Positions 13,065 through 17,210 of a DNA stretch of 64,000 nucleotides are shown one piece after another. The stretch is taken from the NCBI RefSeq assembly GCF_900114435.1, contig NZ_FOZK01000002.1:620001-684000 (forward strand), given 5' to 3'. The notes beneath the pieces were generated by a model that searched no databases, had not been told where the DNA came from, and worked only from the letters and a program-made list of their open reading frames with translations. The position numbers and the translations under genes are program-made. Position 1 is the first letter of the stretch, and every line of letters starts with the position of its first letter. Origin of the DNA: Halomicrobium zhouii (GTDB lineage: Archaea > Halobacteriota > Halobacteria > Halobacteriales > Haloarculaceae).

Positions 13065-14014
13065 TGTGCCACCTCCGTCTCGACGCTCTGTGTGCGCTCC
13101 GCCCTCGTGAGGTCGACGAACACCTCCTCCAGTGACGCCCGGCGGACGTCCAGCGAGGTGACGGTGTACCCCTGCGATTCGAGGTCCCGCATCACCGCGG
13201 GGGCGAGGGTGCTCCCGCCCGCGGCGGTCACCAGCAGCGTGTCGCCCTCGACCGTCACGCCGTGGACGCCGTCGACGTCGAGCGTCGGCGCGGTGGTCGG
13301 GGCCGACGCCAGTCCCACTTCGACGGTGTCGGTGCCCCGCTCCATCAGGTCCTGGGGCGTCGCGACCTCCACCTTGTTCCCCTCGTTCATGATGGCGACG
13401 CGGTCACAGAGGCGCTCGGCCTCCTCGATGTAGTGCGTCGTCAGCAGGATGGTGGTCCCGTCGTCGTTCAGGTCGGTGATGAGCTCCCAGAGGTCCCGGC
13501 GGAGTTCGACGTCCACGCCCGCCGTCGGCTCGTCGAGAATGAGCAGGTCCGGGTCGGAGACGAGCGCGCGGGCGAGGACGAACCGCCGTTTCATCCCGCC
13601 CGAGAGCCAGTCGAAGCGCGTATCGCGCTTGTCCCAGATGCCGACAGTCTTGAGCGCGTCGGCCGCCCGCTCTTCGGCGACGTCGTGGGGAACGCCGTGG
13701 TAACCGGCCTTGTGCTCCAGAACCTCGTGAATCGGGAAGAACCGGTCGACGTTGTACTCCTGGGGCGCCAGACCGATGCGGTCCCTGGCCTCACGGTAGT
13801 CGGCCTCCACGTCGAAGCCGAACACCTCCGCGGTCCCGCCGTCGGCGTGGACCAGCCCGACCAGCGAGTTGATGAACGTGGTCTTGCCCGCGCCGTTCGG
13901 CCCGAGCAACCCGAAGAACTCCCCCGACTCCACGGTGAGCGAGAGGCCGTCGAGGGCCTGCACGTCACCGTAGGATTTGCGTAGCTCGCGGACGTCGATG
14001 GCGGGTGCCGTCAT
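13061..14014 (-). CDS. ABC-2 transporter ATP-binding protein
   Basis: A 317-aa ATPase of the DrrA/CcmA exporter group. Walker A GPNGAGKTT is at residues 38-46, the Q-loop LAPQEYN near 87, the signature LSGGMKRRF near 145, Walker B LLILDEPTAGVD near 165, and the switch His in LTTHYIEEAE near 200. The C-terminal 80 residues form the extra beta domain common in DrrA-type ATPases (TVEVGLA..., then LDVRRASLEEVFVDLT). It is the first gene of a two-gene operon with the permease. An AAAA box at 14041-14044 on the plus strand lies about 28 nt before the start codon. Confidence 0.94.
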   Translation of the reverse strand: MTAPAIDVRELRKSYGDVQALDGLSLTVESGEFFGLLGPNGAGKTTFINSLVGLVHADGGTAEVFGFDVEADYREARDRIGLAPQEYNVDRFFPIHEVLEHKAGYHGVPHDVAEERAADALKTVGIWDKRDTRFDWLSGGMKRRFVLARALVSDPDLLILDEPTAGVDVELRRDLWELITDLNDDGTTILLTTHYIEEAERLCDRVAIMNEGNKVEVATPQDLMERGTDTVEVGLASAPTTAPTLDVDGVHGVTVEGDTLLVTAAGGSTLAPAVMRDLESQGYTVTSLDVRRASLEEVFVDLTRAERTQSVETEVAQ

Positions 14015-14115
14015 TGGCTATGCGAAACCGATGGCCACGCAAAAGGGTGCTGAAACGGCTCTCGTCGTGGAATTCCGTCGACAAAACCGGCGTCGATAAG
14101 TCGTCTAACGTCGCG

Positions 14116-14475
14116 TTACTGGCCGAGGCGTTCGCGGCTGATCGCCACGCCCGCCGGCGTGATGAGCAACTGGTCGTCGTCCTTCTGGACGATGTCGCCG
14201 CCGACCTCGTTGACGACGCGCTTGAGTTCGTCGCTTATCTGTTCCATCGTCCGGTCCTGCGTGCTGTGGCGCGTGATGTCGGCGACGACGATGTCACCGT
14301 CGTAGACGGCGTCTTTGATCTCGATGACGTCCTGCTTGTTCCCGATTCGGGCGATCCGGACCTGTCGCTCTGCCTCTTCGGAACCCAGGTCGAAGTCGTC
14401 CGCGTGCAGTTCGACGTAGTCCTCGGTCTGGCGAGACGACCCGCCCTCTCCCAGAATCTTGCTCATCAATCCCAT
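14116..14475 (-). CDS. sepF: Archaeal cell-division protein SepF
   Basis: A 119-aa protein matching archaeal SepF (formerly DUF552/DUF1621-type). In haloarchaea SepF anchors FtsZ1/FtsZ2 to the membrane at the division site. It begins MGLMSKILG, the short amphipathic membrane-targeting helix, followed by a polar linker with SRQTEDYVEL and a compact alpha/beta core (VIEIKDAVYDGDIVVADI, TMEQISDELKRVVNEVGG). The open frame extends upstream, but the ATG at 14475 has a TATAGG box about 27 nt before it and begins with the targeting helix. Cysteine is absent. Confidence 0.9.
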   Translation of the reverse strand: MGLMSKILGEGGSSRQTEDYVELHADDFDLGSEEAERQVRIARIGNKQDVIEIKDAVYDGDIVVADITRHSTQDRTMEQISDELKRVVNEVGGDIVQKDDDQLLITPAGVAISRERLGQ

Positions 14476-14546
14476 GTTCCCCAAGGTGGGTGGAATCCGT
14501 ATAGGTCTTACGTCAGACGCGACCTTTTTCGTCGTCGGGTGTCCTC

Positions 14547-14717
14547 GGACCGCTTCGCGGTCCTGCGGGCACCACTCCTCGAAAATCACCCTCAGACGCG
14601 CTTCGCGCGTCTGATGGGCTCGCAAGTGCTTCGCACTTGCGACCGTCGGTGAAAAAGGCCGGTCGCTCGTTTCACTCGCGACCGGTAGAAACCGCGGCTC
14701 CCTGCGGTCGCCGCGGT
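14547..14717. repeat. Array of five consecutive perfect hairpins
   Basis: The gap between sepF and the PUA-protein gene holds five hairpins in a row. Three have TTC triloops: 14547-14563 (7-bp stem GGACCGC/GCGGTCC), 14593-14613 (9 bp, CAGACGCGC/GCGCGTCTG) and 14621-14641 (9 bp, CGCAAGTGC/GCACTTGCG). Two have longer loops: 14659-14685 (8 bp, CCGGTCGC/GCGACCGG) and 14691-14717 (8 bp, ACCGCGGC/GCCGCGGT). Stems differ in sequence but share geometry. They would lie in the 3' region of the PUA gene transcript and upstream of sepF. Confidence 0.75.
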
Positions 14718-14734
14718 ATGCTCTTCCGCCCCGC

Positions 14735-15214
14735 CTACACCGTGAACTCGAAGAGGTCGTCGCCGACGTGGTGGATGGACTCGACGACCTTGCCGGAGTC
14801 GCCGACCATGTCGTCGCCGGAGGCCTTCGCGCGGCCGACGGCGAGGAACTTGCCGTGGGACTCCTCGTTGATGGCCACCAGGTCGCCCTCGGAGATGTCG
14901 TCGTCGGCCTCGGTGATGCCCGGGCGCATCACGTCCGCACCGTCGGAGACGAACGAGACGGCGCCGGCGTCGACGGTGACGATGTGCTCGGTCGGCGGGA
15001 AGGCGTTGAGTCCCTGGACGGTGAGGAACGGCTCGTCGTCCACGTAGAGGACGAGCGGTTCGCCGTCGACGAGGACGACTTCCCAGTCGCTGTCGTCGAA
15101 CTCGACTTTCTCGTAGCTGTCGGCCTCGACGTCGACGCCGAGGTTCTCCGACACGGCCGTCTCGATGTCGTCGATTGCGTCCGCCCGGAGGTGGTGGCGC
15201 GACTTGACGTTCAT
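14735..15214 (-). CDS. PUA-domain RNA-binding protein
   Basis: A 159-aa archaeal protein with a C-terminal PUA domain (roughly residues 80-155: EHIVTVDAGAVSFVSDGADVM, PGITE, EGDLVAINEESHGKFLAVGRA). The N-terminal domain (MNVKSRHHLRADAIDDIE...) is like that of the MCT-1/Tma20-related archaeal PUA proteins. Relatives bind structured RNA and in eukaryotes assist ribosome recycling or initiation; the archaeal role is inferred. The ATG at 15214 is preceded at 28 nt by a GATAAATC box (15239-15246), so the earlier in-frame ATG at 15310 is not used. Confidence 0.85.
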   Translation of the reverse strand: MNVKSRHHLRADAIDDIETAVSENLGVDVEADSYEKVEFDDSDWEVVLVDGEPLVLYVDDEPFLTVQGLNAFPPTEHIVTVDAGAVSFVSDGADVMRPGITEADDDISEGDLVAINEESHGKFLAVGRAKASGDDMVGDSGKVVESIHHVGDDLFEFTV

Positions 15215-15378
15215 ACCCTGACTGTGCAGTGGCCCGGAGATAAATCGCCCGCTCTCGCGGTACTGGTGCGCGACGCGTGCTCGATTCGACCGTCCTGATG
15301 GACTGTTCACGGACGATCGGACGTGCTGTCGCCGACGTGCGAAAAACGATAAATAGGTAGGCGAACCAACTAGTTCCC

Positions 15379-15660
15379 ATGCTGGGATCCCGGCGCTCCC
15401 GGGACGTCGTCACCTGCATCGCCTGCGGTGAGTCCGTGGACCGGACCGACGCCCGAGAGTACGACAAACACGGCGACCGGTGGAATCGCCGCGACAAAGA
15501 GTTCGAGTACCTCTGCAAGCCCTGCCATCGCGACCTGACCCACCAGCCCCGGAGCGGCCTCGAAGATACCCTCGACGACGCCGGCGCCGGCGAACTCGAC
15601 CAGGCCCGCTTCCTCCAGCAGTACCACGACCTCGTGCGGGGGCGCGACTCGCCGAAGTAA
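15379..15660 (+). CDS. Small zinc-binding protein (CxxC...CxxC, DUF7562-type)
   Basis: A 93-aa protein with two cysteine pairs, CIAC near residue 13 and CKPC near residue 46, which would bind one zinc. Between them lies an HNH-like basic/acidic stretch (SVDRTDAREYDKHGDRW) but no complete HNH nuclease motif. I think it belongs to a haloarchaeal family named DUF7562; function unknown. An ATAAATAGG box at about 15350-15357 precedes the ATG by 27 nt, a textbook leaderless arrangement. The start codon follows a divergent promoter region shared with the PUA gene. Confidence 0.75.
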   Translation: MLGSRRSRDVVTCIACGESVDRTDAREYDKHGDRWNRRDKEFEYLCKPCHRDLTHQPRSGLEDTLDDAGAGELDQARFLQQYHDLVRGRDSPK

Positions 15661-15740
15661 GGCGTCACACCGCCCGTAGACCGCGTTTTCTTCGCTCGGC
15701 CCTTCGCTGCACGCCTGTCGCTCCCTGCGGTCGCTCCCCG

Positions 15741-15858
15741 CCAGCTCACGGCTCGCTTCACTCTCACGGTTCTCTTCGTTCACCGTTCGAGCACTGTGGC
15801 GCGTAGCGCCACTCGTTCCCCGTTCGCCGTGAGCTGGTTTTCGCTGCGCTCGAACCAG
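15741..15858. repeat. Nested inverted repeats between the small zinc-protein and RNB genes
   Basis: A 12-bp perfect inverted repeat has arms at 15741-15752 and 15826-15837 (CCAGCTCACGGC/GCCGTGAGCTGG). It encloses a perfect hairpin at 15796-15812 (GTGGCGC, loop GTA, GCGCCAC), and a further hairpin CTGGTT/AACCAG spans 15834-15858. The intergenic gap 15661-15899 otherwise holds no open frame with coding character. Confidence 0.6.
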
Positions 15859-15899
15859 CCTCCCGACACTCCTAACTACACACCCTCCGTAGCCGGCGT

Positions 15900-17210
15900 A
15901 TGACCACAGACGACGCGCAGGCCGCGGCAGGCACCGTCGAGGGCCAGGGTCCCGTCGAGATCGACGAGGACGTGGCCCGGCACCTCGCCAACAAGCGCGA
16001 GGAGCTCTTCGAGAAGTTCGAGATCCGCGACGAGTTCCCCCCGGCCGTGATGGAGGAGGCCGAAGAGCGCACAACCGACGTCCAGCAGGAGATCGCCGAG
16101 GAGATCGACGAGCGCGAGGACCTCCGGGAGATGACGACCTGGACGACGGACCCCATCGACGCCCAGGACTTCGACGACGCCATCTCCGTCGAGGAGCGCG
16201 AGGACGAGTACGTCCTCTGGGTCCACATCGCCGACGTGACCCACTACGTCAACCCCGACACGGCGATGTGGGACGAGGCCGTCGAGCGGGCCAACACCGT
16301 CTACCTCCCGGATTACACCATCCACATGCTCCCGCCGATGCTGGCCGAGACGGTCTGTTCGCTGGTCCCCAACGAGGACCGCCTCGCCCACACCGTCGAG
16401 ATGCACCTCGACAAGGAAGACCTGGGCTACGAGACCATCGACATCTACAAGTCCGTCATCCGCAGCGACGCCCGGCTCACCTACTCCGAGGCCGAGACGC
16501 TGCTGGACGAGCCAGAGAGCGCCGCCGACTTGCTCGAAGACCAGAGCGTCGACCTGGCGGAGAAGACGGACCTCGTCTGGCACCTCGCCGACGCGATGCA
16601 CGAACAGCGAAAAGAGGAGGGGTCGCTCGTCCTGAACCCCAGTCGCGACCGGGCCCACACCATCATCGAAGAGTGCATGCTCAAGGCCAACAAGGCCGTC
16701 ACGCACGAACTCATGTGGGGTCGCGGCGTCGAGGCGATGTACCGCGTCCACCCACAGCCCAGCCCAGAGGAGTGGGACGAGGCCCTCGTCGAGATCCAGG
16801 AACTCGACGGCGTCTCCATCCCCGGCAGTTCGTGGGACGACCCGCGGATGGCCGTCAACGCCACGCTGGAACAGGCGCCCAAGCGCCAGCTCGACCAGAT
16901 CCAGTGGGCCGTGATGAAGGTCATGCCCCGGGCGAAGTACATGAACGACCCCTTCGGCGGTCACCACGCGCTGAACTTCGAAATCTACGGTCACTTCACC
17001 TCGCCCATCCGCCGGCTCTCGGACCTGATCAACCACTGGATCGTCTACACCAACGACGTCCCGGAGGACCTCGTGGCCCTGTGTGACCGGGCCAGCGACA
17101 AGCAGAAAGACGCCGAGCAGTGCGAACGCGAGTACAAACAGTTCCTCGAAGAGGTCGGTCTCGACCCCGCCGCGGTCAACAATCGCGGGATCGAAGTCGT
17201 AGAGGAATAG
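15900..17210 (+). CDS. RNB-domain (RNase II/R family) exoribonuclease, minimal form
   Basis: A 436-aa 3'-5' exoribonuclease catalytic domain. The RNB active-site motif TDPIDAQDFDDAIS carries the metal-binding aspartates (Asp84, Asp90, Asp92, Asp93), followed by WVHIADVTHYV and, near the C-terminus, the Tyr-containing EIYGHFTSPIRRLSDLINHW. Bacterial RNase R (about 800 aa) has cold-shock and S1 domains on either side; here both are missing and only about 80 charged residues precede the RNB core. Haloarchaea are among the few archaea with such enzymes and combine them with an aRNase J system. Cytosolic; substrate scope unknown. Confidence 0.92.
   Translation: MTTDDAQAAAGTVEGQGPVEIDEDVARHLANKREELFEKFEIRDEFPPAVMEEAEERTTDVQQEIAEEIDEREDLREMTTWTTDPIDAQDFDDAISVEEREDEYVLWVHIADVTHYVNPDTAMWDEAVERANTVYLPDYTIHMLPPMLAETVCSLVPNEDRLAHTVEMHLDKEDLGYETIDIYKSVIRSDARLTYSEAETLLDEPESAADLLEDQSVDLAEKTDLVWHLADAMHEQRKEEGSLVLNPSRDRAHTIIEECMLKANKAVTHELMWGRGVEAMYRVHPQPSPEEWDEALVEIQELDGVSIPGSSWDDPRMAVNATLEQAPKRQLDQIQWAVMKVMPRAKYMNDPFGGHHALNFEIYGHFTSPIRRLSDLINHWIVYTNDVPEDLVALCDRASDKQKDAEQCEREYKQFLEEVGLDPAAVNNRGIEVVEE

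Follow-up and report, generated by a model that had tools for sequence, protein, structure and literature searches.

An array of GNA-capped hairpins at a haloarchaeal sepF locus: a candidate repeat family defined by its DNA fold

The window, which is the whole stretch of 64,000 nucleotides that was analysed, covers G000:C2:620001-684000 in a haloarchaeal genome of 4.25 Mb in 6 contigs. Five hairpins form an array in the intergenic DNA between a gene for a PUA-domain protein and sepF, both of which lie on the minus strand. This location, proposed in an earlier note made from the sequence alone, was confirmed by Pfam matches. We distinguish two layouts: type A, a stem of at least 6 bp with a GNA loop, and type B, an outer stem of at least 5 bp followed by a GA/GA mismatch, 2 bp and a GNA loop. 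The features of the locus are as follows.

14116-14475, minus strand: sepF (PF04472, E 7.2e-14), downstream of the array on the minus strand
14538-14544 and 14567-14573: arms of the outer frame of hairpin 1, a longer imperfect stem with a GCA/GA internal loop, of which hairpin 1 is the cap
14547-14563, minus strand: hairpin 1, type A, GGACCGC-GAA-GCGGTCC, 7 bp, loop TTC on the plus strand
14592-14614, minus strand: hairpin 2, type A, 10-bp stem TCAGACGCGC, GAA loop (TTC on the plus strand)
14620-14642, minus strand: hairpin 3, type A, 10-bp stem TCGCAAGTGC, GAA loop (TTC on the plus strand)
14652-14656, minus strand: T5 tract, read as AAAAA on the plus strand, lying between hairpins 3 and 4
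14659-14685, minus strand: hairpin 4, type B, CCGGTCGC-GA-GT-GAA-AC-GA-GCGACCGG, 8-bp outer stem, 11-nt apparent loop
14691-14717, minus strand: hairpin 5, type B, ACCGCGGC-GA-CC-GCA-GG-GA-GCCGCGGT, 8-bp outer stem, 11-nt apparent loop
14735-15214, minus strand: PUA-domain gene (PF01472, E 3.6e-19), upstream of the array on the minus strand

The array hairpins have no stem sequence in common. On the minus strand, all five carry a GNA loop, which is GAA in hairpins 1-4 and GCA in hairpin 5, and hairpins 4 and 5 follow the layout stem-GA-NN-GNA-N'N'-GA-stem', that is, a tandem G.A mismatch, exactly 2 bp and a GNA triloop. The five hairpins of the earlier note are real and lie where it had placed them to within one base pair, with 14547-14563 forming 7 bp and a TTC loop as claimed. 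The stem lengths of 7-9 bp given there hold for hairpin 1, but hairpins 2 and 3 have 10 bp and are one pair longer. A shared TTC triloop is likewise correct for the plus strand of hairpins 1-3, although the feature that is really shared is GNA on the minus strand. The last two hairpins, which had been set apart by their longer loops, both fit the GNA rule through the GA/GA mismatch and two base pairs. The T5 tract between hairpins 4 and 3 may possibly be the terminator of the PUA transcript.

Folding drew the type B layout of hairpin 4 exactly with both DNA and RNA parameters. The layout of hairpin 5 was exact with RNA parameters, and DNA parameters gave a close variant with a 4-nt loop. For both strands, and with RNA as well as DNA energies, the 206-nt array region had z = -5.6 to -5.9, and 0 of 200 shuffles were as stable. 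The two strands were little separated, with folding energies by DNA parameters of -64.7 kcal/mol (minus) and -63.0 kcal/mol (plus).

For the genome-wide counts, genes were called with our own simple hexamer gene finder, and the borders of the intergenic regions are therefore approximate, with miscalls at least at 15370-15783 of the window. Expected counts were obtained from dinucleotide shuffles of intergenic DNA (464-kb set), and related copies were counted one by one in all element totals. In 464 kb of contig C2, we found 35 perfect intergenic triloop hairpins with a stem of at least 7 bp, as compared to 7.6 in the shuffles. The GNA loops among them were GAA (9, 0.25 expected), GGA (5, 0.3 expected), GTA (3, 0.05 expected) and GCA (3, 0.1 expected). 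Altogether, 20 of the 35 had GNA on one strand, where about 0.7 were expected, and the 15 hairpins with other loops were also in excess (about 6.9 expected). GNA-loop hairpins with one internal loop and an outer stem of at least 6 bp numbered 28 in the same 464 kb, against 2.35 expected; the internal loop was GA/GA two pairs from the loop in 18 of them (0.0 expected), and every other internal loop was seen at most once. The excess was weak for tetraloops of the RNA type, both GNRA (5 vs 2.25) and UNCG (6 vs 1.4). Hairpins with CTTG/CAAG tetraloops were observed 3 times in this set, a small count, with 0.1 expected.

We also examined intergenic triloop hairpins in which two inner pairs separate a 2x2 mismatch from the loop. 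In this genome the mismatch was GA/GA in 21 of 21 of them, 18 with a GNA loop; in 80 other haloarchaeal loci it was GA/GA in 11 of 16, 7 with GNA. When the number of inner pairs was one, three or four, GA/GA was found 0 times in this genome and once in the 80 loci. Across 864 kb of this genome, of which 149.5 kb are intergenic, we counted 43 intergenic type A elements (6.5 expected) and 48 of type B (0.05 expected), the latter rising to 51 when all 864 kb are included. The palindromes are thus more frequent than composition predicts, a question on which the earlier note had made its observation depend.

The 48 type B elements contain 25 distinct outer 5-mers, and the related copies among them are therefore not independent. 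The pair that closes the loop is C-G in 43 of the 48, a pyrimidine precedes GA in 42 and a purine follows it in 46, which is the context of sheared tandem G.A pairs in DNA. Within 50 nt on each side of these 48 cores there was no strongly conserved position outside the core, the highest being two isolated G positions at just over 60%. The 80 haloarchaeal loci held 68 perfect triloop hairpins with a stem of at least 7 bp (18.7 expected), of which GAA, GGA and GCA together made up 25. Other loops were enriched there as well, such as CCG (7, 1.2 expected) and AAA (6, 0.5 expected), and the preference for GNA is weaker outside this genome.

Base pairing was also analyzed without being assumed, by taking every intergenic GA-NN-GNA-NN-GA as a site together with 15 control letter designs, two of which are reverse complements of each other. 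At the 273 sites in this genome, both inner pairs were complementary in 46.9% and three outer pairs in 23.4%, with both present in 55 sites. The control designs gave 2.0-16.3%, 0-7.7% and 0-9 sites, respectively, the count of 9 belonging to GC-NN-GNA-NN-GC, itself a perfect palindrome. For the other haloarchaea pooled (8 genomes and the 80 loci, n = 367), the values were 27.8%, 11.2% and 36 sites, with controls of up to 17.4%, 9.4% and 11 sites. We then scored each pair position by re-dealing the 3' letters 500 times among distinct sites (264 here, 378 elsewhere). In this genome, 10 of 10 pair positions lay above 500 of 500 shuffles, and the four Watson-Crick pair types occurred at every position. 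In the other haloarchaea, the two inner and first three outer positions beat every shuffle, and outer positions 4-8 failed to beat all of them at the 378 distinct sites. Some slid controls of this test were high because the fixed G and A letters fall into register. That five unrelated stems end in one kind of loop, two of them with matching G.A contacts, suggests that it is the folded shape, not the letters, that evolution has kept.

One version of the type B core, YGAACGNAGTGAR, has 158 sites in this genome and its reversed control 1, in counts that take in coding DNA and do not require the outer stem. On the same basis, it was found in 194 of 194 Halobacteria, including the own genome, at 5,275 sites (reversed control 106), with a median of 22 per genome and fewer than 5 sites in 7 of the 194. 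It was rare in 53 other genomes of the phylum, with 70 sites (reversed 21) and at most 7 per genome. The unpaired variant YGAACGNACAGAR, which differs from YGAACGNAGTGAR in composition, occurred twice in the own genome and between 0 and 9 times in each of the 194. For GAGCGNAGCGAG-type patterns, the control counts read backwards were contaminated and left unused, since a one-base offset lets the reversed pattern hit the motif itself; the control for YGAACGNAGTGAR is free of this fault.

Eight other haloarchaeal genomes were sampled for 60-160 kb each; the intergenic DNA of 5 contained whole type B hairpins and that of 3 did not. None was found in 377 kb from 4 non-haloarchaeal members of the phylum. 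The own genome was the richest of those sampled for whole hairpins, several of the other haloarchaeal genomes having been sampled for their frequent core pattern. In one genome (G136), four type B hairpins lay outside the called intergenic DNA. Type B was also present in 11 of the 80 named loci, with 11 elements in intergenic DNA and 2 inside predicted genes; these loci include Halomicrobium, Salinibaculum, Halomarina, Natrinema and Haloarchaeobius.

Changes in the array can be read from copies of its parts. The block with hairpins 2 and 3 occurs again at C2:514088 (L002, 91% identity) and at C1:718420 (L003, 87%). The stem of hairpin 2 is kept in both copies, with a TTC loop here and at C2:514088 and a GAA loop at C1:718420. 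The stem of hairpin 3 is also kept in both, and its loop is TTC here and GGA there on the plus strand. Between paralogous blocks, the GNA cap flips strand while the stem is unchanged. In the near relative HArc-gm2 (L033), SepF and hairpin 4 are identical, and hairpin 5 has inner GC/GC instead of CC/GG, a GTA loop instead of GCA and one weakened outer pair. Hairpins 2 and 3 are absent there, and an unrelated GCA-capped hairpin with near-identical flanks occupies the place of hairpin 1. The earlier note had proposed that either structure is under selection or a small unit that makes hairpins has been inserted repeatedly, which pointed in the right direction: the letters of loop and mismatch are constrained, the stems are compensated and the block of hairpins 2 and 3 stands at two other sites.

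Hairpin 1 is surrounded by a repeat unit at about 14520-14577 on the minus strand, with T-rich and A-rich ends. This unit has about a dozen dispersed relatives of roughly 77-84% identity, some of which are oppositely oriented, and in two of its copies (L003 1985 and L004 1515) the stem of the cap is quite another one, as though caps could be swapped. We rejected the frame GGTGCCC-GCA...GA-GGACACC as a frequent fixed element, a strict pattern having matched no other copy in 864 kb and its relatives being looser. A role in sepF regulation was also rejected, the array not being conserved at orthologous sites. Plasmid or phage records held no similar sequence at E <= 1e-3.

We interpret the array as part of a family of extragenic hairpins that is REP-like, including in its spread, and that has a non-canonical DNA fold as its defining feature, and assign this reading, including a presumed mover and function, a rough probability of 0.55. 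According to the available part of PMC2817692, REP elements and BIMEs follow a single consensus in each genome, carry a conserved 5' tetranucleotide of the GTAG type and are accompanied by a RAYT gene. The haloarchaeal elements are likewise short extragenic palindromes that are clustered and present in high copy number. Moreover, several of the REP consensus tips reported there from Citrobacter, Enterobacter and Klebsiella can be read as two G-C pairs with a GAA, GGA or GCA loop. The haloarchaeal elements differ in having no stem consensus, conserved flank or solitary RAYT, and since a fixed flank and a solitary RAYT are missing, the array is not REP by definition. Repetitive hairpin-forming and double-hairpin elements of organelles resemble it in comprising many small intergenic hairpins that are patchy among close relatives and thought to be mobile, but the abstract and outline of PMC2800124 give no GNA or tandem G.A rule for them.

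The Y1 transposase family PF01797 matched three loci in the genome, each beside a TnpB-like gene and one of them broken by a stop, and no solitary Y1 transposase (RAYT) was among these matches. IS200/IS605 was rejected as the mover, given three loci of which none is solitary. The stop-interrupted transposase of the IS200/IS605 type at G000:C2:344478-344836 adjoins an oppositely oriented TnpB-like gene. More small hairpins, one of them GAA-capped, were seen at L191 2010-2100, directly upstream of a tnpA/tnpB pair.

The placement of the elements bears on a different explanation, in which the host cell selects the fold because cruciforms around transcribed gene ends absorb supercoiling or hinder read-through. 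Of the intergenic regions of at least 100 nt, an element was present in 27 of the 214 between co-directional genes, 7 of the 56 between convergent genes and 5 of the 121 between divergent genes (co-directional plus convergent vs divergent, p = 0.0099), and type B elsewhere was found 10 times in 66 kb of convergent, 11 times in 146 kb of co-directional and twice in 86 kb of divergent DNA. Both distributions are consistent with such a topology element, and the strand symmetry described below fits a cruciform. However, the site is not conserved, relaxed criteria giving an element upstream of sepF in 6 of the 77 gaps that could be evaluated among the 80 loci. Further, the 85 elements considered (37 type A with a stem of at least 7 bp and 48 type B) occupy only 40 of 554 intergenic regions, with two or more in 27 of the 40, and type A elsewhere shows no deficit between divergent genes (13 in 86 kb, as compared to 20 in 146 kb co-directional and 11 in 66 kb convergent). 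We regard a host topology element as rather unlikely.

Complementary arms could also arise without selection if a nascent strand folds back at a very stable GNA mini-hairpin and, by template switching, uses its own arm as the template. The GNA cap is described in the available part of PMC4686876 as the tightest hairpin turn in DNA, and a mutational product of this kind would account for perfect arms, diverse stems and compensated changes alike. The same process would convert GA/GA to paired letters, yet GA/GA is the sole mismatch class kept here (21 of 21), and type B, with its 11-letter core, is no rarer than type A (48 vs 43). This origin is distinctly unlikely in our judgement.

Hairpins acting in transcripts, as 3'-UTR elements or terminators, are suggested by the sepF locus itself, where GNA is sense with respect to both neighbours, and by the fact that RNA folding also draws the hairpins. 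In addition, hairpins near RNA 3' ends have been reported from Haloferax volcanii, one of them tested (PMC7237163, in the part available). These are haloarchaeal and close to transcript ends as well, but they were found from RNA ends, whereas the GNA rule of the array is independent of the transcribed strand; the comparison is by description and not by sequence. Selection on RNA would be expected to place GNA on the transcribed strand. In co-directional intergenic regions of this genome, GNA was sense in 28 and antisense in 33 elements (p = 0.61), or 10 vs 14 with 4 ties when counted by region. The numbers in other haloarchaea were 10 sense and 10 antisense for type A and 5 and 6 for type B. 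The GNA strand is independent of the transcribed strand, and DNA is therefore favoured over RNA.

A link to transcription termination, raised in the earlier note, finds no support in these counts or in the tracts. A T4/A4 tract lay within 20 nt of 17 of the 85 elements, hardly more than the 16.1% at random places in the same regions. Within 120 nt after the stop, a tract of T4 or longer preceded the element 22 times and followed it 6 times, and was absent 33 times. A search with Rfam covariance models gave 0 matches up to E = 1 in window positions 13900-16100. With the orientation, the weakly enriched RNA-type tetraloops and the zero Rfam matches all against it, an RNA-level element, whether terminator, 3'-UTR element or Rfam family, is improbable. 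Chance palindromes in GC-rich DNA, which the 82 triloop hairpins with a stem of at least 7 bp in 384 kb of coding DNA might bring to mind, are refuted by the shuffled intergenic DNA (0.05 type B vs 48) and can be dismissed.

Strand does have order at short range. Neighbouring elements in clusters had the same strand in 56 pairs and different strands in 16, and for sites of two core variants within a 2-kb cluster, 122 pairs were on the same strand and 16 on different ones. Replication-strand polarity was considered and rejected, the clusters of the two core variants on C1 being without long runs (39, as compared to a shuffled mean of 41.2; p = 0.35).

Returning to the reading of the array as a REP-like family with a non-canonical DNA fold, we consider it probable, and with good confidence, that the fold is constrained and acts at the level of DNA. 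As far as sequences can establish it, the letters of loop and mismatch are constrained, the stems compensated and the GNA strand independent of transcription; the sequences likewise show few type B elements in divergent intergenic regions, blocks that reappear at scattered places and an array content that varies among close relatives. In the mechanism that we propose, one strand of each unit would fold into a stem with a GNA cap, reached directly in type A and, in type B, by way of two base pairs that follow a tandem G.A step. Such units may spread and persist in the manner of REP elements, with arrays copied via a single-stranded or cruciform stage. Copies would be retained only while the GNA-capped fold can form, presumably because some protein or repair process recognises the shape. 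The scarcity between divergent genes would then mostly reflect exclusion from promoters. More tentatively, and as a possibility that we hold below even odds, the elements may constitute a shape-coded DNA repeat without fixed sequence, copied and retained throughout the haloarchaea by recognition of a folded single strand with sheared G.A pairs.

GNA mini-hairpins and tandem G.A steps are known mainly from synthetic DNA work. To our knowledge, the mini-hairpins have been described in the form of oligonucleotides and as tools, and not as a class of elements found across a genome. A GNA or GNNA loop on at least two G-C pairs forms an 'extraordinarily stable' DNA mini-hairpin (PMC4686876, in the part available). 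The d(GC-GNA-GC) mini-hairpins cited there follow the same rule of GNA on at least two G-C pairs, and in all five array hairpins the GNA loop sits on two base pairs or more; the type B hairpins of the array differ by adding a tandem G.A step two pairs below the loop. A survey of perfect inverted repeats in 118,019 genomes found peaks after stop codons that were weaker in archaea, and its available text covers perfect arms only and contains no word beginning 'halo' (PMC13155455). The available text of PMC1590033 gave no match in a term search. In the open literature, searched by title and the start of the abstract, no GNA-capped or GA/GA hairpins of haloarchaeal genomes were found, most subscription journals lying outside this coverage.

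The natural genomes of a whole archaeal class thus appear to keep letters that stabilise DNA, on either strand and in any direction of transcription. If true, this would provide a large natural data set for the secondary structure of DNA, as opposed to RNA, in cells, and hairpin formation in a high-salt cytoplasm would become directly testable. It would also supply a rule for a type of intergenic sequence that is common in haloarchaea and apparently unnamed in the literature covered.

A second and more degenerate array was observed at 15690-15860 of the window, where a perfect GTA-capped hairpin at 15796-15812 is accompanied by several type B cores with extra mismatches.
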